Below, in pieces: positions 4,648 to 36,128 of a stretch of 36,128 nt of DNA. The stretch is from Chloroflexota bacterium. Lineage in GTDB: Bacteria; Chloroflexota; Dehalococcoidia; SHYB01. Every line of letters begins with the position of its first letter. The stretch's first letter is position 1. The DNA lies in assembly GCA_016875535.1 (NCBI GenBank), contig VGPF01000025.1:1-36128 (forward strand), read 5' to 3'. The notes below the pieces were generated by a model. That model did not search any database. It was not told where the DNA came from and saw only the letters and a program-made list of their open reading frames with translations. The position numbers and the translations under genes are program-made.

Positions 4648-4845
4648 CTAGACGCCGGGAAGGAGGCGCTTGATCTGCTCCACGTTGACCTTGTTCACTT
4701 CCAGCTTGTTGTCATAGAGACGCCGGGCGGTCTTGCTGCGGTTGCGGCGGAAGTGGGTCTTGCCGCCCTTGGTGCGCATAATCTTGCCCTTGGCGGTGAT
4801 GAAGAAGCGGGACTTGGCCCCTTTATGGGTCTTAAGCTTTGGCAC
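4648..4845 (-). CDS. rpmI: 50S ribosomal protein L35
   Basis: 65-residue basic protein with the usual L35 start (MPKLKTHKGAKSRF) and full family length. It starts with GTG, supported by an AGGAGG about six bases upstream that lies inside the end of infC. The two coding regions overlap by 14 bases, so L35 translation is probably coupled to IF-3. It is a structural component of the large ribosomal subunit. Confidence 0.96.
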   Translation of the reverse strand: MPKLKTHKGAKSRFFITAKGKIMRTKGGKTHFRRNRSKTARRLYDNKLEVNKVNVEQIKRLLPGV

Positions 4846-5395
4846 TGGTTTCCTCCTCAGCCTTTCCTGAACCCGATTTCTTGGCGGCGCCGCTGATGGG
4901 CGCCAGCATCATGGTCATGGCGCGCCCTTCCATGGCGGGCGGCTTCTCCAGCTTGGCCTGCTGGGCGAACTCTTCGGCGACGCGCCGCATCAGGGTGATG
5001 GCCTGCTCCGGGTGGGTGATTTCCCGTCCGCGGAAGAGGACCGTCATCTTCACCTTATGGCCTTCGTCCAGGAAGCGCTGAACCATCTTGGACTTGAAGG
5101 CGATGTCGTGGTCGTCAATGCGCGGGCGCATGCGGACTTCGCGCACTTCGCTGGTCTTCTGGCCCTTCCGCGCCTCCTTCTCCTTCTTACTCTGCTCATA
5201 GCGGAACTTGCCGAAGTTCAGGATGCGGCAGACGGGAGGCACCGAGCTTGAGGAGACTTCCACCAGGTCCATCTCCTGATCGAGCGCGGCCTTGATGGCA
5301 TCGGACAGGCTTATCACGCCCAGCTGTTCGCCATCGGCGCCGATGACGCGAACTTCCCGAGCGCGTATCTGATGGTTGATGCGGTATTCGCGAAT
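4832..5395 (-). CDS. infC: Translation initiation factor IF-3 with a non-standard start codon
   Basis: IF-3 binds the 30S subunit, checks start-codon pairing and prevents premature subunit joining. The N-domain motif REYRINHQIRAREVRVIGADG and the linker and C-domain (VEVSSSSVPPVCRILNFGKF onward) are all in one frame. No ATG, GTG or TTG lies between the in-frame stop (TAG at 5407-5405) and GTG at 5317, and starting there would lose the conserved N-terminal strand. Initiation must be at ATT (5395) or the adjacent ATA (5398); ATT is chosen because AUU is the known start of E. coli infC, where it allows self-regulation. GGAGGG lies at 5414-5409. About 187 residues, with a short acidic/serine C-terminal tail. 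First gene of the operon with rpmI and rplT. Confidence 0.9.
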   Translation of the reverse strand: MREYRINHQIRAREVRVIGADGEQLGVISLSDAIKAALDQEMDLVEVSSSSVPPVCRILNFGKFRYEQSKKEKEARKGQKTSEVREVRMRPRIDDHDIAFKSKMVQRFLDEGHKVKMTVLFRGREITHPEQAITLMRRVAEEFAQQAKLEKPPAMEGRAMTMMLAPISGAAKKSGSGKAEEETSAKA

Positions 5396-20448: not shown

Positions 20449-20954
20449 CTACCATGCCGGGATGTATCTAGTTGTGCTGTTGTCATCTATGGCGATCCAT
20501 TTTGTCGGATTACCTGCACTTGGGCCGTTTGTTAGTGTGCCTGTTGACGCGCCACTACCATCAGCCAGGGTAGTACCTGTGTGAATCAGTGTTGTATCGC
20601 CTGTGATTTTAAACCTCCGCTACCATCTACTACAACCGTTCCAGTAGGGGTTTTTAGAACAACGTTGCTAGGGGTGTCTAACGTAATGTTGTCTGCCTTT
20701 ATGTCGAGATCGGTAGTCCTAGTTGTTTTGATAGTGGTTCTTCCCGATGTTGTTTCTATTTGTAGTGTTTCACTACCGAATACGGAAATCTCTAGCACTA
20801 TTCCATAATTGCCAACACGTTTGATAAAACCTGTAAGTTCATTTGTGCTTTGAAAATTGAACGCATTTCCGCTACTGCTAGCGTCTCCAAAAAATGCATA
20901 ATCTCCGGAGGATTTAGACGTTATCCCTCTACCGTTTCCGTTATCAATATTCAA
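20449..20954 (-). pseudogene. Truncated, frameshifted phage tail-fibre-like gene
   Basis: The first frame (TTG 20954 to 20586) encodes beta-rich repeats typical of phage appendage proteins (IKADNITLDTPSNVVLKTPTG). Near the homopolymer at 20607-20613 the frame appears to lack one base; the adjacent frame then continues naturally with FKITGDTTLIHTGT... and ends ...DDNSTTRYIPAW at TAG 20451-20449, just before the next gene's ATG. Upstream of the TTG, the same frame stays open and protein-like (NDNSRDSRLNIDNG) back to about 20995, where it runs out of foreign DNA inside the RDD gene. It is therefore probably missing its 5' end. The frame break could be a sequencing error. Confidence 0.65.
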
Positions 20955-21553
20955 CCGACTGTCTCTGGAGTTGTCATTATCGTTTTCTTTTCCTCGCGAA
21001 CGAGCACCACGTGTCCGGCGATGCGGTCGTACCAGGTCTGCTTTTTCGGGTAGGCCTGAAGAATAAGGAAGCCTACGCCGACGGCGGCAATTGCCAGGGG
21101 CCGCACTATCAGCCGCAGCAACGAGGATCGCAGAGGGACGCGCCGGCCACTCAAATCAGTGACCCTAAGTCCGACGGCTTGCTTACCCAGCGTTCCCTGC
21201 CACCGGGAGGCGTCCATCCACAGGTAATAGACCGCTAGGATGGCAAGCCACACTACGTACTGGCCAGGCCCGGTGGGTAGCGGATCGCTAGACTCGGGAT
21301 CGAAGGATTCTCCAAACAGAAGATGGACGAGGGCAAGGAGGCCAAAGGCAAGTATCAAATCAATCTGAAGCGCCGCGAACCGAAGCCAGATATTGGCAAA
21401 GGCGTAGCCCTCAAGGGGCGCCTTGACATCAGGGCTTGCTGCCGGAGGGGACTCGCTCTCCTGGAGCAACCGGACCGCGTGAGTCCCAGCGCCACAGCGC
21501 CTGCAGAAGAGGTCGCCGACCGGATGAGGCGTGCCGCAGGCGGTGCAGAACAT
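20951..21553 (-). CDS. Zinc-ribbon + RDD-family membrane protein, copy 1
   Basis: 200 residues. An N-terminal zinc ribbon (Cys3, Cys6, Cys17, Cys20) precedes an RDD domain with three or so membrane segments and the family landmarks RFAALQIDLILAF, the GTLGKQAVGLRVTDLSGR block and RPLAIAA. RDD proteins are small membrane proteins of mostly unknown role, some linked to ion transport. The final residues (about KTIMTTPETVG) are encoded by the AT-rich foreign DNA, so the original C-terminus has been replaced. It is last of three tandem related genes. Confidence 0.8.
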   Translation of the reverse strand: MFCTACGTPHPVGDLFCRRCGAGTHAVRLLQESESPPAASPDVKAPLEGYAFANIWLRFAALQIDLILAFGLLALVHLLFGESFDPESSDPLPTGPGQYVVWLAILAVYYLWMDASRWQGTLGKQAVGLRVTDLSGRRVPLRSSLLRLIVRPLAIAAVGVGFLILQAYPKKQTWYDRIAGHVVLVREEKKTIMTTPETVG

Positions 21554-21562
21554 CCACGCCTA

Positions 21563-22130
21563 CTACGACTTTTTCTCGTTGACGACGAGGGTGCCTGCCA
21601 TGATGTCATGCAGGCCCTGTTTCTTTTCCGTCCAGGCGACCATCAGGTATCCGATGAGGAGGATGACAACAGAAATGAGTTTGCCGAAATAGCGGCCTGT
21701 CGCCTTTGCAAAAGTGATTTGCTTTCCATCGTAGTCGGTCACCGCGATGCCGAGGGCCATCTTGCCGAGGGTGGCCTTGCGCGGCGAGCTCTCCATGAGG
21801 GCATAGTAGAGCCAGCCGCCGAAGAAGGCGATGAGCCGGGCGACGGCATCCAGCTTCGTGAATCCGCCATCGTCTTCCACATCATTGCCTGTAGCGGCAA
21901 CGATGATGTCCCCCGCCCTAGGATTTTCTTGGACACGGAATTGGGGCATGATGCCACAAACTCAAGGAGGTGTCCATGATGGATGGAAAGGGCGAGGGAG
22001 CACTTGATCGAGGCGGCGTTGCCACAGGCGGTTGCGGCTGGGCAGCAACGGGGGCGCTGATATTGTGGCCGCACTTCCCGCAGAATGCCGCCGTATCTTC
22101 GTTCGCTGTGCCACATTTAGGGCAGAACAT
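21563..22130 (-). pseudogene. Zinc-ribbon + RDD gene, copy 2, disrupted
   Basis: The start is normal: ATG 22130 with AAGGAG upstream, inside the end of copy 3. It encodes a zinc ribbon (Cys3, Cys6, Cys17, Cys20) and a Pro/Ala linker. That frame then leaves homology and stops at 21918. The rest of the RDD domain (LDAVARLIAFFGGWLYYALM onward, GKMALGIAVTDYDGK) is in another frame, open from 21949 to 21563. Compared with copies 1 and 3, the first RDD membrane helix, about 25-30 residues, is missing. A deletion with frameshift is the simplest reading. The ATG at 21949 has no ribosome site, so independent translation of the second half is doubtful. Confidence 0.65.
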
Positions 22131-22731
22131 TTGCCGGCTCCTTAAATGGGGTGGTGTGTGCAGATGCCTCTAAGACCAGGGTCCTGGCAAACACGTCATG
22201 CAACGCCTGACGGCGGTCTGACCAGAAGGCCATCAGATAACCTATCAAAACAAGGCTAGCGGAAATCGCCTTCGCGAAGTAGCGGGCCGTGGCGCGACCG
22301 AAGCCGATGTGGCCGCCATCCTCATTGGTGACGACAAGGCCCAGGAGCATCTTCCCTGGAGTGGCCCTCCGTTTTGAGGACTCAAAGCCTGCGAAGTAGA
22401 GCCACGGGCCGGCAAAGCCCAGCACAAGCAAGAAAGCGGCCAGGCCCGAATAGCTCTCGGAGTAATCGATATCGAAGTTCTCAAGGGTTGCAGCCTCTGC
22501 CACATCGGGGCTCAGGACGGCATACGCAATCGAAAGGGCTATGACGGGTGTCAAAACAATCAGCCAGTCAACGATAAAGGCGGCGACCCGCCTGCCCGGA
22601 TCTGCGTACGGCAAGGGCGCCGGCGCGGGCCGTGGAACCACAATCTCAACGGGAGAGGCGAAGTGCTGGCCGCACCGGGTGCAATAAACGGCCTCATCGG
22701 CCCGCTGGACGCCGCACTTAGGGCAATACAC
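22117..22731 (-). CDS. Zinc-ribbon + RDD-family membrane protein, copy 3
   Basis: 204 residues, complete. Zinc ribbon Cys3, Cys6, Cys17, Cys20, then a Pro-rich linker and an RDD domain starting RRVAAFIVDWLIVLTPVIAL with the classic Arg and Asp-Asp/Asp-Trp positions, then GKMLLGLVVTNEDGG. About four hydrophobic segments. Start is GTG at 22731 with GGAGG seven bases upstream. It heads the tandem trio and overlaps copy 2 by 14 bases. Zinc-ribbon plus membrane domain suggests a sensor or scaffold, but the substrate is unknown. Confidence 0.85.
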   Translation of the reverse strand: MYCPKCGVQRADEAVYCTRCGQHFASPVEIVVPRPAPAPLPYADPGRRVAAFIVDWLIVLTPVIALSIAYAVLSPDVAEAATLENFDIDYSESYSGLAAFLLVLGFAGPWLYFAGFESSKRRATPGKMLLGLVVTNEDGGHIGFGRATARYFAKAISASLVLIGYLMAFWSDRRQALHDVFARTLVLEASAHTTPFKEPANVLP

Positions 22732-26342: not shown

Positions 26343-28730
26343 ATGAAAGCTCCCCTCTCCTGGCTGAAGTGGTACGTTCCGTTTGAGCTTGACCCGCACA
26401 CGCTGGGCCACCGGATGACGCTTGCCGGCGTTGAGGCGGACAAGATCGAAGTGCGCGGCGGCTGGGATGGCGTCGTCGTCGGCCTGGTGAAGGCGGTCAA
26501 CCCGCACCCGAACGCCGACCGCCTGCGCCTGGCGACGGTGGACTACGGCGCAGGGGAGATGACGGTGGTCTGCGGCGCGCCGAACGTGGCAGCGGGGCAG
26601 AAGATTGCCTTTGCGCGAGCAGGGGCGAAACTCATTGACGGGCACACGGGCAAGCCTGCCGTGCTGAAGCCCGCAAAGATCCGGGGCGTTGAATCGCAGG
26701 GGATGGTCTGCTCCGAAAAAGAGCTTGGCCTTTCGCAGGAGCATGAAGGCATCCTGGTGCTGCCATCGGAGGCGGCTATCGGAACACCGCTGGACGCCGT
26801 CCTGGGCGATGCCGTCATTGACTTCGCGGTGACTGCCAACCGGCCGGACTGCCTCTCCATGCTGGGGCTGGCGCACGAAGTGGCGGCGCTGACGGGCGGC
26901 AAGGTGCGGGAGCCGACGCTGCGCTACCCGGAGACGGGCGAGGCGATCCAGAAGAAGACACGGGTCGAAATCCTCGATGCCGACCTCTGCCCGCGCTATA
27001 TCGCGGGCTTGGCCACCGGCGTCAAGATCGGCCCCTCGCCGAAGTGGATGCAGGACCGCCTGACGGCGGCCGGGATGCGTCCCATCAACAATATCGTGGA
27101 TATCACGAACTACGTCATGCTCGAGTTCGGCCAGCCGCTCCACGCCTTTGACTACGACCTGCTGACAGAGCACCGGATCGTGGTGCGACGGGCGAAGGCG
27201 GGCGAGACCATCACCACGATAGACGGCCAGGAGCGGAAGCTGACGCCCAGCATACTCCTCATCGCGGACGCGGCGCGGCCGGTGGCGCTGGCGGGCGTGA
27301 TGGGCGGCGCGCGCAGCGAAGTGAGCGAGCGCACGACGAACGTGCTGCTGGAATCGGCGGCCTTCAACAATATCAACATCCGTCGAACGTCCAGAGATAT
27401 CGGCCTGCGGAGCGAGGCATCGTCGCGCTTCGAAAAGGGCCTTTCGGCGGAGCTGCCCATCTACGCGGCGCGCCGGGCGATGCAGCTCTTTGTGGAGCTG
27501 TGCGGCGGGACGGCGGCGCAGGGGCTTGTGGATGTCTACCCAGGAAAGGCGCCGCAGCGGAGGGTGCGGGTGACGGGCCATCGGGCGAGTGCGCTGCTGG
27601 GCGTCCGACTCACTTCAAGCGACCTGACGCCGGTGCTGAGGTCGCTCGGCTGTGATATCCATCACGCAAGCGACGACGCGTTGGAGGTCACACCACCCTA
27701 CTGGCGGATGGACTTGAATATCGAGGACGACCTGGTAGAGGAGTATGTGCGCATCAAAGGCTTCGACTCGATCCCGACGGCAAAGCTCTCAGGGGCTGTG
27801 CCAGCCTTCGAGCCATCGCCGCTCCTGGCGCTCAAGGAGAGCCTGCGCGATTTGCTGGCGGGAGCGGGACTGCAAGAGGTCATCACCTATTCGCTGACGA
27901 ACCAGGCCGGGCAAGCGCTCTCCGGGGGCGGCAACGGCCTGCGCATCCTGAATCCCCTGGCGAGTGACCAGGAGGAGCTGCGCCTGAACCTGCGCCACGG
28001 GCTGCTGAAGACACTGGCGATCAACCAGAGGAACCAGGAGAACGGTGTGCGTCTCTTCGAGCTGGGGCGCATCTACATCCCACGCTCGGAAGAGCTTCCG
28101 GACGAGCGGGAAATCCTTGGGGTGCTCCTCTCCGGGCCGCGGGATGACCTGCACTGGAGGCGAACAGAGGAGAGCCTGGACTTCTTCGACGCGAAGGGGC
28201 TGATCGAAAGCCTCCTGGCTGAGTTACTCCTGAAGGGAACCTTCGATCCCACAAAGGACGCCGTCCTGCACCCTGGGAAGACGGCGGCGATTACCCTCGG
28301 GAAGACGCAGGTGGGTGTCGTTGGCGAAGTGCATCCTAAATTCGCGCGCGCCTTCGACCTTTTAGAAAGATCTGCGGCCTATTTCGAGATTGATCTTCAA
28401 GCGCTGCTTGAAGCGATGCCGAAGGATGAGCGACGCTACCAGGCGGTCGGGCGCTTCCCCAGCGTCCTGCGGGACCTGGCTATCGTGGTAGACAGGGCGC
28501 TGCCGGCGGAGCAGGTGGCGGCGCTGATCCGGTCCGGGGAGATGGTGGCGGGGGTAACACCGTTTGATGTTTACACGGGCAAGAATATCGCCCCGGACAA
28601 GAAGTCGTTGGCTTACCGGGTGGTCTTCCAGTCACCGTCCAAGACACTCACGACGGAAGAGGCGGATGGACTACAGGAACGCCTGCTGTCGCGCCTCGCA
28701 AAGGAATTTGGGGCGACGCTCCGGGGTTAG
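26343..28730 (+). CDS. pheT: Phenylalanyl-tRNA synthetase beta subunit
   Basis: 795 residues, full length. In order: EMAP-like tRNA-binding domain (about 40-150, VVGLVKAVNPHPNADRLRLATV), B3/B4 editing domain (about 210-370), B5 domain (about 400-475), catalytic-like core, and FDX-ACB anticodon-binding domain (about 700-795, VGRFPSVLRDLAIVVD). It edits misactivated tyrosine and binds tRNA-Phe. Three bases after pheS and clearly co-translated. Confidence 0.97.
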   Translation: MKAPLSWLKWYVPFELDPHTLGHRMTLAGVEADKIEVRGGWDGVVVGLVKAVNPHPNADRLRLATVDYGAGEMTVVCGAPNVAAGQKIAFARAGAKLIDGHTGKPAVLKPAKIRGVESQGMVCSEKELGLSQEHEGILVLPSEAAIGTPLDAVLGDAVIDFAVTANRPDCLSMLGLAHEVAALTGGKVREPTLRYPETGEAIQKKTRVEILDADLCPRYIAGLATGVKIGPSPKWMQDRLTAAGMRPINNIVDITNYVMLEFGQPLHAFDYDLLTEHRIVVRRAKAGETITTIDGQERKLTPSILLIADAARPVALAGVMGGARSEVSERTTNVLLESAAFNNINIRRTSRDIGLRSEASSRFEKGLSAELPIYAARRAMQLFVELCGGTAAQGLVDVYPGKAPQRRVRVTGHRASALLGVRLTSSDLTPVLRSLGCDIHHASDDALEVTPPYWRMDLNIEDDLVEEYVRIKGFDSIPTAKLSGAVPAFEPSPLLALKESLRDLLAGAGLQEVITYSLTNQAGQALSGGGNGLRILNPLASDQEELRLNLRHGLLKTLAINQRNQENGVRLFELGRIYIPRSEELPDEREILGVLLSGPRDDLHWRRTEESLDFFDAKGLIESLLAELLLKGTFDPTKDAVLHPGKTAAITLGKTQVGVVGEVHPKFARAFDLLERSAAYFEIDLQALLEAMPKDERRYQAVGRFPSVLRDLAIVVDRALPAEQVAALIRSGEMVAGVTPFDVYTGKNIAPDKKSLAYRVVFQSPSKTLTTEEADGLQERLLSRLAKEFGATLRG

Positions 28731-28760
28731 CAAAAAGCCCGTGGTACAATCGGTGACGGT

Positions 28761-28837
28761 GCGGCGGTAACTCAGTCTGGTAGAGTTCCTGCCTTCCAAG
28801 CAGGTTGTCGCGGGTTCAAATCCCGTCCGCCGCTCCA
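28761..28837 (+). tRNA. tRNA-Gly (anticodon TCC), CCA encoded
   Basis: A 7-bp acceptor stem (GCGGCGG 28761-28767 with CCGCCGC 28827-28833) is followed by T and a genomically encoded CCA (28835-28837). The D arm carries CAGTCTGGTAGAG. The anticodon stem CCTGC/GCAGG (28788-28792, 28800-28804) encloses CTTCCAA, giving anticodon TCC at 28795-28797. The T loop is TTCAAAT. A TACAAT at 28745-28750 may be its -10 box. Its 3' half is reiterated downstream. Confidence 0.93.
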
Positions 28838-29163
28838 GCGTTTTCCCCCGAAGTCCCCTTGTTTACCCTGCACTTAGGAGGCAGGTCTTTTTGAGGCTTC
28901 AAGCGGACCAAGCAGGTTGTCGCAGGGACAAATCCCGTCCGCCGCTCCAGCGTTTTTCCACTCCTTCGCTAGCTTGCTCGTTGCTTGGAAGGCAGGTCTC
29001 TTTTGGGGCCTCTGGCGGGCCAAGCAGGTGGTCGCAGGTCAAATCCCGTCCGCCGCTCCAGCGCTTTCCCCCTAAGTCCCCTTGTTTACCCTGCACTTAG
29101 GAGGCAGGTCTTTTTGAGGCTTCAAGCGGACCAAGCAGGTGGTCGCGGGGACAAGTCGCTTCC
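28796..29163 (+). repeat. Tandem array of about 112-bp units derived from the tRNA-Gly 3' half
   Basis: Units start with CCAAGCAGG at 28796 (inside the real tRNA), 28908, 29020 and 29131 (partial), spaced 112, 112 and 111 bases. Units 1-2 keep the tRNA 3' end through CCGTCCGCCGCTCCAGCG, with progressive T-loop damage; the partial fourth lacks it. Spacers alternate A-B-A': the first and third are nearly identical, the second is different. Each spacer also carries a GGCAGGT motif; in the second it is a reverse-complement copy of the anticodon arm (GCTTGGAAGGCAGG). No full second tRNA can be folded. Confidence 0.85.
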
Positions 29164-29243: not shown

Positions 29244-29567
29244 GTACGCAAATCTGATAGCTCCCTCAGTTATTAACTCCAAATCTGGAGCAGTCGGGGT
29301 TCCACATCTTGTTTATTGCCCTCCTCAGGAGGTACGATTTCTTTCTGGACACCGAAAGCTGAGGGGGCTCTACTTCCTGTGTCCGGCAGCAGTAGAGTGA
29401 CCCATATCTGTGTTAGGGGAGTAGACTAAGCGATTTGGTCATCCTAGCTCTGGGCTTTGCAGGATTTCAGACCAACATGAATCGCCCTTACCGGCAAGAG
29501 GAAGCCCCCTTTTGAACGTCCACTTAGACCAACAGGCAATTCGCCCTGAACCTCACGGAGGATGCCA
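29244..29567 (+). promoter_or_regulatory. Long structured leader before the NusG-like gene
   Basis: No gene seen. Visible structure includes a CCTCC-TCA-GGAGG hairpin (29320-29332) and a perfect 7-bp stem CTCTACT/AGTAGAG (29368-29374 with 29391-29397) enclosing a 16-nt loop. Neither is followed by a T-run. A long leader in front of a specialised NusG gene is the place where such factors, or RNA polymerase, are often loaded; that role is inference. Confidence 0.4.
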
Positions 29568-30188
29568 GTGAGTCTTCAGTGGTATGTGATTCGAAGCAAG
29601 CCGCAGAAGGAGTACACGACCCGAAATCGTCTCCTTCGGCTTGGTTTTGAAGTTTTTCTCCCTGTTGCCCGGACAGCGATGTCGAACGGTGAGCGCAAGG
29701 AGCGTCCTCTGTTCCCCGGATATCTTTTCCTCCGATGCAACCTCGGCGAACTCAAGTGGGCTCCTCTAGGTCAGTTCTCAGACTTCCTAGGCTTTGTGCA
29801 GTTCGAAAGCGTTTCCCCTCCTGTCCCTGATTCATTAATCGGTGACCTCCGCGGACGCGTCCATCGCCTTGAGCAACAGGGGGGCCTGTGGCATGCTCCC
29901 CAGTTGGGCGACCGTGTTCGGGTAAAGATCGGGAAACTGGAGAACCTGGGCGAAGTACTTAACACCCCGCAAACGCCCGACGAGCGCGTATGGGTCCTGC
30001 TTCAGTTCCTTGGTTCCCTTGTGCGAGCTCAGGTAAGACAACAGGACATCATCCCGGACTCAAAAGTCTCCACCACGCCGCTTGGCCCATTTGTGACACG
30101 CCCGCCAAGGCGCACGAGGGGCGGAGGACGTTGGATCCAGACGCCGAGCGCACTTGAGAAACACACGCCCGGCTTTGCCGTCTCTTAG
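29568..30188 (+). CDS. NusG/RfaH-like transcription antiterminator of the polysaccharide cluster
   Basis: 206 residues. The N-terminal NGN domain (WYVIRSKPQKEYTTRNRLLRLG... RPLFPGYLFLRCNL) binds RNA polymerase. A KOW-like domain follows (about 108-160, LGDRVRVKIGKLENLGEVL), then a basic, low-complexity tail. Specialised NusG paralogues (RfaH, UpxY, LoaP) sit first in long polysaccharide operons and let polymerase read through. GTG at 29568 is chosen because GGAGG (29557-29561) lies six bases before it; the ATG at 29562 touches the ribosome site. The general NusG of the cell would be elsewhere. Confidence 0.88.
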   Translation: MSLQWYVIRSKPQKEYTTRNRLLRLGFEVFLPVARTAMSNGERKERPLFPGYLFLRCNLGELKWAPLGQFSDFLGFVQFESVSPPVPDSLIGDLRGRVHRLEQQGGLWHAPQLGDRVRVKIGKLENLGEVLNTPQTPDERVWVLLQFLGSLVRAQVRQQDIIPDSKVSTTPLGPFVTRPPRRTRGGGRWIQTPSALEKHTPGFAVS

Positions 30189-30307
30189 CTGCAGAAAAAA
30201 CGAATTGCCTGCGTCGTAGCCGCTGCTCCGGGGCAGTTCGTCAAAAGAGCCAGTTCGCTCAGGATCCAGGGGGTCTTGGGCAGGGCAACTATTTGGAAAA
30301 TCCACAG

Positions 30308-30329
30308 CTCCCGGCAGATTTGCTGGGAG
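30308..30329 (+). promoter_or_regulatory. Stable hairpin upstream of the UDP-glucose dehydrogenase gene
   Basis: A 9-bp stem with one G-U pair (CTCCCGGCA 30308-30316 with TGCTGGGAG 30321-30329) and GATT loop, in a 171-base gap with no gene. No T-run follows, so it is not a plain terminator. It could be a processing or antiterminator-loading site. Confidence 0.4.
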
Positions 30330-30359
30330 GAAGTTCCCACACAGCGCACAGGAGCGTCA

Positions 30360-31658
30360 TTGAATATCGCAATCATCGGCACGGGGTACGTCGGGCTCGT
30401 TACTGGGACATGCCTCGCAGAAACGGGGAACCAGGTAGTCTGTGTTGACAACAACCCTGAAAAGATCACCCAACTACAGAAGGGCGCTGTCCCTTTCTAT
30501 GAGCCGGGCCTGGAGGAGCTCGTCCACCGACATTCGGCGAGCGGGTCTCTTTGCTTTAGCACAGATCTTGCCGAAGCAGTGGCCAAGGCATTAATCATCT
30601 TCATCTGTGTAGGGACCCCGCCAGGACAGGAGGGCGCGGCTGACCTTACAGCTGTGGAATCGGTCGCCAAGGATATTGCCAGGGCGATGAACGGGTACAA
30701 GGTCATCGTCACGAAAAGCACCGTGCCGGTAGGAACAACTGATGCCCTGGCAAAGAAGATCGCCCTTTTCACAACGCAGCCGTTCGATATGGTTTCCAAC
30801 CCCGAATTCCTAAAGCAAGGCGATGCGGTGCATGATTTCCTCAAGCCGGACCACATCGTTATTGGGACCACAAGCGCGAAGGCTGCGGAGACGATGCGCG
30901 AGCTCTACGCCCCCTTCGTCCGAACCGGAAGTCCGGTCCTTCTCACCGATACACGCAGCTCAGAAATGACAAAGTACGCCACAAACGCCATGCTCGCGGC
31001 ACGGATCTCCTTCATGAATGAAATTGCCAACCTTTGCGAACTTGTCGGAGCCGACGTTGAAATTGTGCGAAAAGGACTCGGCGCAGACAAACGGATAGGT
31101 AGCTCATTCATATTCCCTGGGGTAGGCTACGGCGGAAGCTGTTTGCCTAAGGACGTGAAAGCACTAGCCCAGATGGGACGCCAAAATGGCTATACGCTTC
31201 GTCTCTGTGAGGCCGTTGATTATGTTAATCATAGTCAAGCTGACCGATTCTTCAAAAAAATCGAGCAGCATTTCGGCTCGCTGGCAGGAGTGAAAATCGC
31301 ACTTTGGGGGCTCTCCTTCAAACCGAGGACCGACGATCTGCGAGAGGCTCCGTCTATCCGGCTCATCCAGCGGTTGCTCAGTGCTGGAGCGCAAATCAGC
31401 GCACATGACCCGCAGGCGATGGGCCTCGTAGCGAAGGCCTACCCAAGCGGCATCAGGTTCTCGCATGACGCCTACGATGCTGCCGCAGGTGCCCAAGCTA
31501 TCGCTCTTATCACTGAGTGGAATGAGTTTCGGAATCCCGACTTTGCACGTGTCAAAAAGACGATGCAGTCACCTATTATTTTCGACGGCAGGAACATTTA
31601 CGACGGCACAAAGCTGAGGCAGATGGGCTTCACATACTACGGCATAGGGCGCCCCTGA
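30360..31658 (+). CDS. ugd: UDP-glucose 6-dehydrogenase
   Basis: 432 residues. Oxidises UDP-glucose to UDP-glucuronate with two NAD+. The N-terminal Rossmann motif is NIAIIGTGYVG. The catalytic Cys lies in GVGYGGSCLPKDVKAL (about residue 260), and the C-terminal UDP-binding domain has KIALWGLSFKPRTDDLREAPS. The start is TTG at 30360, supported by AGGAG five bases upstream and by the Rossmann motif beginning at once. The stop overlaps the next ATG (TGATG). Its product is the substrate of the following enzyme. Confidence 0.93.
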   Translation: MNIAIIGTGYVGLVTGTCLAETGNQVVCVDNNPEKITQLQKGAVPFYEPGLEELVHRHSASGSLCFSTDLAEAVAKALIIFICVGTPPGQEGAADLTAVESVAKDIARAMNGYKVIVTKSTVPVGTTDALAKKIALFTTQPFDMVSNPEFLKQGDAVHDFLKPDHIVIGTTSAKAAETMRELYAPFVRTGSPVLLTDTRSSEMTKYATNAMLAARISFMNEIANLCELVGADVEIVRKGLGADKRIGSSFIFPGVGYGGSCLPKDVKALAQMGRQNGYTLRLCEAVDYVNHSQADRFFKKIEQHFGSLAGVKIALWGLSFKPRTDDLREAPSIRLIQRLLSAGAQISAHDPQAMGLVAKAYPSGIRFSHDAYDAAAGAQAIALITEWNEFRNPDFARVKKTMQSPIIFDGRNIYDGTKLRQMGFTYYGIGRP

Positions 31659-32626
31659 TGCCTCGATCTCTAGTCACCGGCGGCGCAGGATTTATCGGTT
31701 CCCATCTCTGTGAACGGCTCGTGGCGGCCGGGCATGACGTTGTCTGCGTTGACAATTTTATCACTGGGCGATCCGCCAATGTTCAGCACCTCGCGGGGCA
31801 GAAGCGCTTTACGCTACTGGAATCGGACATTCGAAAGCCGCTTCACGTGCCAGGCCGCCTTGATCATATCTTCCATCTTGCAAGCCTCGCGAGCCCCAAG
31901 GATTATGTCCGCCATCCATTGGAAACGCTCGAGGCCGGTTCCATCGGCTCCACACACACCCTTGAATTAGCCCGCAACTCCGGTGCCACCTTCCTTTTCA
32001 CATCTTCCTCTGAGGTCTACGGTGACCCCTTGGTCCATCCACAGCGGGAAGATTACTGGGGCAACGTCAATCCAAACGGGCCGCGCAGTATGTACGATGA
32101 ATCGAAGCGGTTTGGTGAGGCCATCGCGATGGCATACCACCGACAATACGGAGTTTCAATCCGTATCGCCCGCATCTTCAATACCTATGGCCCACGGATG
32201 CGCATTGGAGACGGGCGGGTCATACCGGCGTTTGTGACACAGGCACTGCAAGAGAGGCCGCTTACCGTTTATGGAGACGGCACTCAGACTCGGTCACTTT
32301 GCTATGTAGACGACACAGTGGAGGCTCTTTTTCTTCTCGGCACTAAGACCTTCCCGAAAGATGTGCAAGGCGTGGGGTTGGTGATCAATATCGGCAACCC
32401 GAATGAGTTAACGATGCTGGATCTAGCTAGATTGGTACTTAAGGCTACCGGAAGCAAGAGCCCTATCATCCACGAGCCATTGCCGGAAGACGACCCAAAG
32501 AAACGACGGCCGGATATATCTCGAGCCAGAGCGTCACTAAGCTGGGAGCCTCGAGTCCCTCTCCGGGAGGGGATCAAGAGCACTATCCCCTACTTCAAAG
32601 CCGCTTCAATGACGAAGGCTTCCTAG
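31658..32626 (+). CDS. NAD-dependent UDP-glucuronate decarboxylase (UXS-like) or related epimerase
   Basis: 322-residue short-chain dehydrogenase. The NAD site is GGAGFIGSH at about 8-16. The active-site set is SSSEVYGDP and YDESKR (Tyr and Lys). NPNGPRSMYDESKRFGEA and RIFNTYGPRM are the strings usual in UDP-xylose synthases. It would convert UDP-glucuronate from the upstream enzyme to UDP-xylose; a UDP-glucuronate or dTDP-glucose epimerase/dehydratase is the main alternative. Overlaps ugd by one base. Confidence 0.85.
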   Translation: MPRSLVTGGAGFIGSHLCERLVAAGHDVVCVDNFITGRSANVQHLAGQKRFTLLESDIRKPLHVPGRLDHIFHLASLASPKDYVRHPLETLEAGSIGSTHTLELARNSGATFLFTSSSEVYGDPLVHPQREDYWGNVNPNGPRSMYDESKRFGEAIAMAYHRQYGVSIRIARIFNTYGPRMRIGDGRVIPAFVTQALQERPLTVYGDGTQTRSLCYVDDTVEALFLLGTKTFPKDVQGVGLVINIGNPNELTMLDLARLVLKATGSKSPIIHEPLPEDDPKKRRPDISRARASLSWEPRVPLREGIKSTIPYFKAASMTKAS

Positions 32627-32632
32627 CGGCTT

Positions 32633-33964
32633 ATGAGCACATCGCCAAGCACAAAGGTCGCCGTTGTTGGACTGGGCTACGTCGGCCTACCTTTAGCCAT
32701 CCACTTCGGACGCTCAGTCTCGACACTAGGCTTTGACATCAACCCAAAGAGAATCGAATCACTAACCCGCGGCGAAGACCTCAACGGAGAAGTCTCGAAG
32801 GTAGATCTCGCCATACCTTTCCTTCGCTTCTCCGCAAACCCTGAAGACTTGGCAGATGCAAACGCTTTTATCGTTGCAGTTCCAACGCCCGTTGATAAAG
32901 CAAATCGCCCGGACCTAACACCACTGATCCATGCCAGTCGACTCGTAGGGCGAGCGTTACGCTCCCGGAGAGATGGCAACGAAGGCAATAACACACCTCC
33001 ACTGGTCATCTACGAGTCCACAGTTTATCCCGGCTGCACTGAGGAGATCTGCCTCCCAATCCTTGAGGAAGAGTCTCAGCTCCTGCGCGGGAAGGCGTTC
33101 AAGATCGGCTATTCCCCAGAGCGCATCAACCCCGGCGATACGGAGCATACGCTCGACAAGGTGGTAAAGATCGTTTCAGGAGAGGATCGCGAGACTCTAG
33201 AGCGGATAGCTGCGCTTTATTCCGTAGTGGCGAAGGCGGGGGTGCATCGCGCCCCAACTATCCGAACTGCGGAAGCCGCCAAGGTAATCGAGAACATCCA
33301 ACGCGACCTCAACATCGCCTTGGTGAATGAACTCTCGATGCTCTTCCACCAGATTGGCCTTAGCACAAAGGACGTACTTGAAGCCGCAGGTACGAAGTGG
33401 AACTTCCTTCCATTCTGGCCTGGTCTCGTGGGCGGGCACTGCATCCCTGTCGACCCCTATTATCTTACCCATAAAGCAGAAGAGATAGGGTTCCACCCTC
33501 AAGTGATTCTTGCAGGGCGGCGAGTCAACGATTCCATGGGGAAATACGTCGCCGACCAGACCGTTAAGCTTTTGATCCAGACGGGCGCGGCGGTACGCAA
33601 CGCTAAGGCACTGGTGCTGGGTATCACCTTCAAAGAAGGTGTGCGGGATATTAGAAATAGCAAGGTTTTGGACCTTATTAATACGCTTTCATCCTATGGC
33701 GTCCATGTCGAGGTGTACGACCCCTTGGTGGAAGCCATCGCCATCAAGCGCCTAGGCTTCACTGCAACACCCGACCCGTTCAAGAACGCGAACAGGTACG
33801 CAGCCGTGATTGTGGCAGTAGCCCATAAAGAATTCCTCGCGCAACCAGGGCAGCGGTATGTTGACCTCCTTCAGGACAACACGGGCCACAGCCTGATCAT
33901 AGACATAAAGGGCGCCCTGACCGGCCGAATAGCCGAGGGTAAAGCGCTTTACTGGAGCCTATAG
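32633..33964 (+). CDS. UDP-N-acetyl-hexosamine dehydrogenase (TviB/WbpO/WecC family)
   Basis: 443 residues. Same overall design as Ugd but of the N-acetyl-sugar branch: VAVVGLGYVGLPLAIHFG at the NAD site, YSPERINPGD, the catalytic Cys in GLVGGHCIPVDPYYLTHKAEEIGF, and VLGITFKEGVRDIRNSKV near the C-terminus. TviB-type enzymes oxidise UDP-GlcNAc or UDP-GalNAc to uronic acids for capsules and O-antigens. It begins seven bases after the previous gene; the ribosome site is weak. Confidence 0.9.
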   Translation: MSTSPSTKVAVVGLGYVGLPLAIHFGRSVSTLGFDINPKRIESLTRGEDLNGEVSKVDLAIPFLRFSANPEDLADANAFIVAVPTPVDKANRPDLTPLIHASRLVGRALRSRRDGNEGNNTPPLVIYESTVYPGCTEEICLPILEEESQLLRGKAFKIGYSPERINPGDTEHTLDKVVKIVSGEDRETLERIAALYSVVAKAGVHRAPTIRTAEAAKVIENIQRDLNIALVNELSMLFHQIGLSTKDVLEAAGTKWNFLPFWPGLVGGHCIPVDPYYLTHKAEEIGFHPQVILAGRRVNDSMGKYVADQTVKLLIQTGAAVRNAKALVLGITFKEGVRDIRNSKVLDLINTLSSYGVHVEVYDPLVEAIAIKRLGFTATPDPFKNANRYAAVIVAVAHKEFLAQPGQRYVDLLQDNTGHSLIIDIKGALTGRIAEGKALYWSL

Positions 33965-33966
33965 GT

Positions 33967-34830
33967 TTGGGGACTTCAGACGTCCAGCAACAAGGGCACC
34001 AGCCACACACCCCGCCCACCCACGTGATCAAGCCATCACGGGGCTGGTTCGCCTTAAACCTGCGAGAGCTCTGGGCATATCGGGAGTTGCTTTATTTTTT
34101 CATCTGGCGGGATATCAAAGTCCGCTATAAGCAGACAGTTGTCGGAGCAGCGTGGGTAATCATCCAGCCCTTCTCGCAGATGGTGATCTTCAGTGTTGTC
34201 TTTGGCCACCTTGCCGACCTGCCGTCGGACGAGATTCCCTATCCGGTCTTCACCTACACTGCCCTGGTCCCTTGGATCTACTTCGCAAACTCTCTTACAA
34301 ACTCGTCGAATGCCGTGGTGGACCAGGCGAGAGTCATCACGAAGGTCTATTTCCCCCGTGTCCTGCTCCCTGCCGGAGGGGTCATAGGCGGTCTGCTGGA
34401 CTTCGGCATCGCTTTCCTGGTGCTCATTGGGATGATGCTCTATTTCGGTATCTCTCCGGGCTGGGCGATCCTCACACTCCCACTTTTCCTTCTGCTTGCC
34501 ATGGCAACGGCACTGGCAGTTGGACTTTGGCTCTCCGCGCTCAATGCCGTCTATCGAGACGTGCGCTATGCATTAACGTTCCTGATCCAATTCTGGATGT
34601 TTGCAACTCCAGTGGCGTATTCAAGCGGCCTCATCCCAGATAGCTGGAAGCCTCTATACGGAATCAATCCGATGGCCGGAGTAGTAGATGGGTTTCGCTG
34701 GGCGCTCCTGGGCAAGGCAGAAGCGCCCGGCCCGATGCTCGCCGTCTCCGCAGCGGTAGTCGTTTTGCTCCTGGTAACGGGCGCGCTCTACTTCAAACGA
34801 ATGGAGCGCTACTTCGCCGATATCGTTTGA
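33967..34830 (+). CDS. Polysaccharide export ABC permease (Wzm/TagG-like)
   Basis: 287 residues with six transmembrane segments of the ABC-2 type. A cytosolic N-terminal part with WRDIKVRYKQTVVGAAWVIIQPF is diagnostic for O-antigen and teichoic-acid exporters. The start is TTG at 33967 with GGAG nine bases upstream; GTG at 34024 is possible. Forms an export channel with the following ATPase to move lipid-linked glycan out of the cytoplasm. Confidence 0.92.
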   Translation: MGTSDVQQQGHQPHTPPTHVIKPSRGWFALNLRELWAYRELLYFFIWRDIKVRYKQTVVGAAWVIIQPFSQMVIFSVVFGHLADLPSDEIPYPVFTYTALVPWIYFANSLTNSSNAVVDQARVITKVYFPRVLLPAGGVIGGLLDFGIAFLVLIGMMLYFGISPGWAILTLPLFLLLAMATALAVGLWLSALNAVYRDVRYALTFLIQFWMFATPVAYSSGLIPDSWKPLYGINPMAGVVDGFRWALLGKAEAPGPMLAVSAAVVVLLLVTGALYFKRMERYFADIV

Positions 34831-34839
34831 GCCACTTCT

Positions 34840-36128
34840 ATGTCTCAGCCAGTGATTGAGCTTAACGGCATCGGCAAGCGGTTCCGCCTCGGGGAACGGG
34901 AGCGGTACCTCGCGCTTCGAGACATTCTCTCGCGCTCCATAGAGGCGCCACTGCAACGCATCCGAGGAAGAAAGGCACCTCAAGAAAAACGGCGCGACTT
35001 AATATGGGCTCTCAAGAACATCTCCTTCCACGTGAAGCATGGCGAGGCTATCGGGATCATCGGAAGGAACGGTGCGGGGAAAAGCACCCTGCTGAAAATC
35101 CTTTCGCGGGTAACGGAACCGACGGCGGGTGAGGGCGAAGTGCTGGGACGTGTCGGCTCTCTACTGGAAGTCGGCACGGGTTTTCACCCGGAATTGACCG
35201 GCAGGGAAAACCTCTATCTTAGCGGCGCAATTCTTGGGATGACCAAGGCGGACATCAACCGCCGCTTCAATGACATCGTCGGCTTTGCTGAGCTTGAGCG
35301 GTTCATCGATACGCCGGTGAAATACTACTCCAGCGGTATGTACATCCGGCTGGCTTTTTCCGTGGCAGCCCATATGGAGCCTGACATCCTCCTAGTAGAT
35401 GAAGTGCTTGCCGTCGGTGATTCAGAGTTTCAAAAGCGCTGCCTTGGCCGCATGGGCGATATCGCGAGCGGAGGGAGAACCGTTCTTTTTGTCAGTCACA
35501 ACATGGCCATCATCAAGGCGCTCACAGAAAAAACAATTTGGCTGGAGAAAGGAGAAATCAAGGGAATCGGGCCCTCATCCGAGGTCGTAGACAAGTATCT
35601 CGCATTGTCTTCCGGGAAAGTTCGCCGTGGTTCCGTTGATGACCATGATCTGGATCTGAATCGAGTCAAGGGCTCTCAGTACCTACACGATGTGGTTATT
35701 AAGAAGGTGGACCTTAAGAACAGTTCTGGGGAAATTTGTGGAGCTTTCCCAGAGAATGCAGATCTCTCAATCGAAATCTACATAGAATGCATCCGTGACA
35801 TAAATCGGTTCAATGTTAGAGTTCCCATCACTACTCCAGAAGGCCTGCTTGTTTTCGAGCTCGTACCGGGCATGAGAGCAGTGCATCTCTGTCCAGGTGT
35901 GTATCGCACATCACTCGACTTGAATCTTTCTCCACTACTACCAGGGGTATTTCAAGGGGAAATCGTCCTTGAGACAAAAGATCTTCAGGATCGTGTGCGG
36001 CCAGCTTTTGAGTTCGAAGTCACGCCATCACCAGGGAAGAGTGCTGATATGTACACCCTCAGCAACTACCCATCAGGAGAATCTCTACTGACTCGAACTG
36101 AGGTAGGGATGATTCGTGTTCCTTGTAG
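34840..36128 (+). CDS. Polysaccharide export ATPase (Wzt/TagH-like), cut by window end
   Basis: At least 429 residues; the frame is open from ATG 34840 to the last base, with no stop. Walker A GRNGAGKST is at 75-83, the signature YYSSGM at 162-167, Walker B LLVDEVLAVGD around 184-194 and the switch His at 220 (VSHN). After about residue 265 comes an extended C-terminal domain rich in beta strands, like the Wzt carbohydrate-binding domain that recognises the modified end of the O-antigen. This suggests length control by a terminal cap. It lies nine bases after the permease. DNA toward its 3' end is notably AT-rich. Confidence 0.92.
   Translation, partial: MSQPVIELNGIGKRFRLGERERYLALRDILSRSIEAPLQRIRGRKAPQEKRRDLIWALKNISFHVKHGEAIGIIGRNGAGKSTLLKILSRVTEPTAGEGEVLGRVGSLLEVGTGFHPELTGRENLYLSGAILGMTKADINRRFNDIVGFAELERFIDTPVKYYSSGMYIRLAFSVAAHMEPDILLVDEVLAVGDSEFQKRCLGRMGDIASGGRTVLFVSHNMAIIKALTEKTIWLEKGEIKGIGPSSEVVDKYLALSSGKVRRGSVDDHDLDLNRVKGSQYLHDVVIKKVDLKNSSGEICGAFPENADLSIEIYIECIRDINRFNVRVPITTPEGLLVFELVPGMRAVHLCPGVYRTSLDLNLSPLLPGVFQGEIVLETKDLQDRVRPAFEFEVTPSPGKSADMYTLSNYPSGESLLTRTEVGMIRVPC

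Follow-up and report, generated by a model that had tools for sequence, protein, structure and literature searches.

The whole stretch of DNA analysed here (the window, 36,128 nt) has a sole tRNA gene, tRNA-Gly(tcc), predicted by ARAGORN at 28761-28837. It is followed by a tandem array of copies of its own 3' part, and the array is confirmed as real. There is about an even chance that its copies are attR-type relics, tRNA-Gly 3' fragments displaced by site-specific integration and subsequently multiplied by local tandem duplication. The features of the locus are as follows.

26343-28730: putative pheT, a 795-aa ORF upstream of tRNA-Gly, named by similarity to known PheT
28745-28750, plus strand: TACAAT, probable -10 box of tRNA-Gly (sequence; upstream-region comparison)
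28761-28837, plus strand: intact tRNA-Gly(TCC), CCA encoded (ARAGORN; Rfam RF00005, 68.7 bits)
28838-28907, plus strand: spacer A, 70 nt, with a degraded reversed anticodon arm at 28871-28885 (11/15)
28908-28949, plus strand: copy 1, tRNA positions 36-77, 39/42, CCA kept
28950-29019, plus strand: spacer B, 70 nt, homologous to A, diverged (47/71)
28982-28996, minus strand: perfect 15-nt reverse complement of tRNA positions 28-42 (anticodon arm)
29020-29060, plus strand: copy 2, tRNA positions 36-77 with one deletion, CCA kept
29039-29163, plus strand: downstream member of a duplication of two units (223 bp); 94% identity with 28816-28940
29061-29130, plus strand: spacer A', 70 nt, 68/70 identical to A
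29131-29163, plus strand: copy 3, truncated, positions 36-68, 27/33, without CCA
29562-36126, plus strand: polysaccharide island, running to the contig end (Pfam; composition)

TRF reports a single array at 28796-29146 (period 112, 3.1 copies, score 479). The tRNA 3' part begins at 28796 within the gene and again at 28908, 29020 and 29131, that is, in steps of 112, 112 and 111. TRF and the repeat search agree on this repetition, which had been noticed in the first-pass annotation together with the presence of two copies keeping the CCA end and a partial last one. The first two copies are 42 and 41 nt long, and the last is 33 nt. Every copy begins at tRNA position 36, in the anticodon loop. The boundary is sharp: identity is approximately 93% to the right of it and at chance level to the left, where 6-9 of 20 positions match the tRNA.

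The spacers had been described as alternating in the order A-B-A'. A and A' are indeed almost the same, but B is not an unrelated sequence. The alignment of A and B has 47/71 identical columns, and its score was reached by none of 1000 shuffles. Thus B is a diverged relative of A, and all units share one ancestor. The 125-nt blocks 28816-28940 and 29039-29163 are 94% identical, with similarity stopping at 29163, and hence the two-unit (223-bp) duplication was the last large step. The TACAAT hexamer upstream of the gene also precedes other tRNA genes of the same genome, as seen from comparison of the upstream regions. A consensus scan found no full sigma-70 site in the promoter region of tRNA-Gly.

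A repeat error of the assembly, considered in the first-pass annotation, is unlikely, as every copy and spacer has differences of its own and the array lies inside a 36-kb contig. The assembly is MAG-like, with 86 contigs, and a similar tRNA-Val repeat lies at a contig end. On the other hand, comparable structures are present in independent assemblies (G001, G002, and the deltaproteobacterial locus L175 described below), and an artefact is scarcely credible. Nor does the array look like a decayed cluster of full-length tRNA-Gly genes. Intact tRNA-Gly genes at a similar period (112) occur in Dethiosulfatarculus (L177). However, the sharp boundary at position 36, the absence of 5' halves from the array and the lack of ARAGORN and Rfam matches in its copies argue against such an origin. 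This candidate was rejected because the tails of the spacers show no resemblance to the 5' half of the tRNA (p 0.24-0.44), and we consider it very improbable.

A search of related genomes, suggested earlier as a check, found the array once in its own genome (G000) and in none of 59 other genomes of the class, where the matches were ordinary tRNA-length stretches of at most 47 nt. No further tRNA-Gly(tcc) fragment was found anywhere in the own genome. The closest relatives considered were G001, of the same genus, and G002 and G003, members of the family. In G001, whose assembly is 70% complete, tRNA-Gly(tcc) itself was not found. A phage or viral origin was rejected: viral_contigs contained no matching array, and phage matches covered the tRNA only.

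The GC content falls from 0.60-0.67 upstream to mostly 0.53-0.58 in the island, and the fall is located at the array. The genes of this foreign-looking island encode, according to Pfam, a NusG/RfaH-like factor, UDP-glucose and GDP-mannose dehydrogenases, an epimerase, an ABC-2 permease and an ABC ATPase, the last two making up an ABC exporter of the polysaccharide type. The NusG/RfaH-like gene is the first of them, approximately 400 nt past the array. No tRNA gene was found at the pheT loci examined in relatives, G002 and G003 included. The fall in GC content, the polysaccharide genes and the tRNA-less pheT loci of relatives together place the array at the edge of the island, at the tRNA 3' end. 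The far end of the island lies beyond the assembled contig. No tyrosine integrase (PF00589) was found on the contig of the array, no recombinase among the Pfam-scanned genes downstream of the array, and no gene between the copies. The own genome contains six tyrosine integrases, four of them adjoining tRNA genes. Elsewhere in the window, at 20951-22731, there are three adjacent minus-strand ORFs encoding apparently related small membrane proteins, RDD-like by eye, two of them with zinc-ribbon-like starts.

The anticodon loop is a standard integrase crossover site. One possibility, and the one that we prefer with about even confidence, is that tRNA-directed integration with crossover in this loop displaced the first fragment, the integrase acting in trans or having since been lost. 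The 70-nt spacers would then be gene-less cassettes or deletion products with no cargo gene left. Local tandem duplication would have enlarged the stack, and the array would now have no function of its own. This is close to the stacked attachment site of the first-pass annotation, the best of its three ideas. In its favour are the start in the anticodon loop, the position of the 3' fragments downstream of the gene and the edge of the island at the array, together with the tRNA-adjacent integrases and two findings described below, the tRNA-Gly(gcc) junction and the ParE cassette that has no integrase. However, it needs two additions. Firstly, the stack grew by local duplication, as A and A' are 97% and the 125-nt blocks 94% identical. 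Secondly, B does not stand apart from A: as the two spacers are homologous, they do not represent independent integrations. Against the integration reading are the contig without an integrase, the gene-free spacers, the unassembled far end of the island, the absence of any other tRNA-Gly(tcc) fragment from the genome, the fragments of sister genomes, which are mostly away from integrases and in many cases are 5' halves (a type rare in Islander), and the integrases of G003, which are not accompanied by fragments.

The serious rival is plain local tandem duplication of the segment from position 36 to 70 nt past the gene, the spacer being the native trailer. It would have proceeded by slippage or unequal exchange, with no integrase ever involved. 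The constant period (112/112/111), the three homologous 70-nt spacers and the second-order duplication of 223 bp are what one would expect from such a process. Small tandem units also occur elsewhere in the lineage: 29-bp at fMet (G002), 101-bp, three times, at Leu(taa) (G000) and 80-bp at Pro(ggg) (G001), and most fragments are not beside integrases. However, this scenario does not account for the fact that the copies and the tRNA-Gly(gcc) junction both start in the anticodon loop, for the island edge, or for the ParE cassette between a tRNA-Leu gene and its fragment. Further, the last element of the array is a tRNA fragment and not a spacer, unless the end has been deleted. We regard plain duplication as possible though doubtful. 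The demonstrated duplication is a part of both explanations.

Contig C9 of the own genome opens with 20 foreign bases, after which tRNA-Gly(gcc) follows from its position 32 onwards. Thereafter C9 is 125/125 identical to the flank of the intact tRNA-Gly(gcc) on contig C62. The foreign 20-mer has no second occurrence in the assembly. This resembles an attR junction and falls in the anticodon loop, as do the position-36 starts of the array copies. The junction (L045 1-64) and the intact copy (L044 8900-9055) are perhaps two forms present in the population.

Terminal tRNA fragments beside tRNA genes recur in the own genome and its nearest relatives, and the array looks like a part of this wider accumulation. 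Fragments of 5' ends lie upstream and fragments of 3' ends downstream, with two exceptions: G004 has an unusual Leu(cag) match, and G001 an Arg copy that is complete but degraded. Exact matches of at least 12 nt within 130-nt tRNA flanks number 9 upstream and 4 downstream, versus approximately zero in shuffles. Fragments accompany 12/104 tRNAs in G000-G002 and 1/51 in G003-G004 (none in G003, one in G004), a borderline difference (Fisher p 0.06). G003 has integrases near tRNA genes, yet no fragments. 5' halves account for many of the fragments in the sister genomes, whose integrases do not adjoin the fragments.

In G000, positions 1-26 of tRNA-Leu(taa) are present in three upstream copies with period 101, and positions 1-18 of tRNA-Val(tac) are copied at the end of contig C40 (L116 / L182). 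A longer array at this contig end may have broken the assembly. The Leu(taa) units (L049 4889-5217 on C14, beside the gene at 4831-4914) are 101 bp long. Besides tRNA positions 1-26, they include a 14-nt segment that is the reverse complement of positions 21-34, and a TACAAT promoter. On its 3' side, the same gene is accompanied by a tyrosine integrase. In G001, 5' fragments precede Leu(caa) and occur at two loci of Pro(cgg), and Ala(tgc) and Pro(ggg) are accompanied by degraded copies that resemble tRNAs. At Pro(ggg) of two species (L124, L112), degraded tRNA-like copies precede the gene (a tandem pair in G001) and a 3' half, also degraded, follows it; by eye, the hairpin arms of these copies seem still paired despite sequence change. 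G002 has fragments at Ala(tgc) and fMet.

G001 also contains a perfect 28-nt copy of the 3' end of tRNA-Leu(caa), approximately 0.6 kb past the gene. The segment between the gene and the fragment encodes a ParE-type protein (PF05016, E 8e-7) and no integrase. Its arrangement is like that of a minimal att-flanked toxin-antitoxin cassette. In this segment (L181 1135-1848), the ParE-type toxin gene is preceded by a small ORF.

Spacer B contains the anticodon arm in reverse orientation, as had been observed before: 28982-28996 is the exact reverse complement of 28788-28802, which is far above chance. This segment straddles the position-36 breakpoint, 8 nt of it falling to one side and 7 to the other. 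The integration reading does not account for it. The same arm is degraded in both A and A' (11/15), and the Gly segment by itself gives no evidence of conservation.

The reversed arm is one argument for a functional RNA array. Here readthrough RNA would yield CCA-ended minihelices or anti-tRNA, and these would titrate one of several targets: RNase P/Z, tRNA-modifying enzymes, CCA enzymes or tRNA-Gly itself. The calculated energy of the duplex between the B segment and the tRNA anticodon arm is -28.9 kcal/mol, no terminator-like site was found ahead of 29286, and similar anti-tRNA segments are conserved and matched to the isoacceptor in the promoters of four tRNA-Leu genes from three genomes. 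The first-pass annotation had likewise suggested minihelix-like hairpins in several units, and a small-RNA array or an RNase P decoy. However, ARAGORN found nothing tRNA-like in copies 1-3, and the covariance-model check that the annotation proposed, cmscan against Rfam at E up to 10, gave no match in the copies. The folding of single units is that of shuffles (z +0.5, +0.3, -0.8), the hairpin piece of B is weak (z -1.35), and no promoter-like site was observed within the array. As the copies have no tRNA score and the units fold no better than shuffles, the RNA readings, decoy and small-RNA array alike, gain no support. A structured RNA family was rejected on the same Rfam and folding results. 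The degradation of the anti-tRNA in A and A' also argues against function, and a functional RNA array is improbable. For longer transcripts, the predicted native tRNA-Gly fold varies with transcript length from 0.17 to 0.93.

The tRNA-Leu segments are 14-nt reverse complements of tRNA positions 21-34. Each precedes its gene by 30-42 bp, close to the -35 region of a probable TACAAT promoter. The segments were found at Leu(taa) of G000 and G001 and at Leu(caa) of G001 and G002 (L049, L120, L084, L098). The Leu(caa) segment is identical (14/14) between two genera, with flanks of 30/63, and the Leu(taa) segment is identical (14/14) within the genus, with flanks of 27/48. The taa and caa segments differ in three positions, each matching its own tRNA. 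Pattern searches covering 391 (taa) and 195 (caa) genomes of the class found the segment in none besides these. The pattern suggests either selection or a copying process that acts repeatedly. Against a functional RNA, the position of the segment, upstream of the likely -10 box, probably leaves it outside the transcript of that promoter. The tRNA-Leu cassette was also considered as a dispersed mobile family, which was rejected, as convincing matches occur only in front of tRNA-Leu genes. The difference between G000 and G001 at tRNA-Leu(caa) may be an insertion in G001 or, as the cassette is also present in G002, a loss from G000.

Another explanation takes the reversed anticodon-arm segments as working parts, so that half-tRNA cassettes insert into or regulate tRNA genes by base pairing. 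The 14-15-nt complement across the breakpoint would act in recombination, as a folded single-strand core, or in control, as an anti-tRNA element, and the Gly array would be one such cassette, amplified. The Gly segment straddles its breakpoint by 8 + 7 nt and the Leu segment by 8 + 6 nt, and the Leu segments are identical (14/14) across genera and follow the isoacceptor. This explanation is unlikely.

Among known arrangements, the array is neither a tandem tRNA cluster, as its copies are not full-length tRNAs, nor a CRISPR, as its spacers are homologous (68/70 for A and A'). For an integron cassette array, whose marks are an integron integrase and attC sites, the relevant observation is that the contig gave no tyrosine integrase hit. 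Cis-mobilizable elements are flanked by att sites and have no recombinase of their own. The 0.6-kb ParE cassette at tRNA-Leu(caa) of G001 has a layout like theirs. The Gly units could be gene-less versions of such elements, although 112 bp is far smaller. An independent analogue of the array is L175 (768-1083), from a deltaproteobacterial MAG, with two tight copies of the tRNA-Gly(gcc) 3' fragment in steps of 107 and 121 bp. Its spacers are mixed, repeated, contain strong hairpins and are unrelated in sequence to those of the array. Both L175 and L178 (Flavivirga, one fragment) have tRNA-Gly 3' fragments directly after the gene at similar spacing, but these start in the T arm and are approximately 24 nt long, whereas those of the array start at position 36.

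Tandem islands of Dehalococcoides are delimited by serial ssrA repeats, and 15 of them have no integration module (PMC3146451). There, as in the array, the 3' end of an RNA gene is repeated downstream of the gene. However, the ssrA islands have 20-bp repeats, kilobases of cargo and the serine recombinase DsiB (PMC3146451), whereas the array has a tRNA-Gly target, repeats of 33-42 bp, 70-nt spacers and no recombinase among the Pfam-scanned downstream genes. A further likeness is to tRNA-integrated islands, which also combine an intact tRNA gene with a downstream 3' fragment in the same orientation and an anticodon-loop crossover (PMC4383910; van der Gulik 2023, PMC9897764). Of 3919 islands in Islander, 2083 use the anticodon site; 3' fragments number 3760 and 5' fragments 159, and integration-split 3' fragments are required to lie downstream and to end with the tRNA 3' end (PMC4383910). 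The array has the intact tRNA and the same-orientation terminal 3' fragments downstream, and they start at one of the known crossover sites (anticodon loop, T loop or T/acceptor junction). However, the Islander islands are 2-200 kb long and contain an integrase, whereas the array is approximately 0.3 kb of several tight tandem fragments with 70-nt spacers and no integrase between tRNA and fragment. Island surveys drop candidates shorter than 2 kb or lacking an integrase, and thus stacks of gene-less fragments would be missed by the Islander filters. Should such stacks be relics of integration, they preserve evidence that a tRNA site was used repeatedly, even though the elements themselves are gone; should the anti-tRNA segments be functional, they would point to an undescribed means by which tRNA genes are targeted or controlled.
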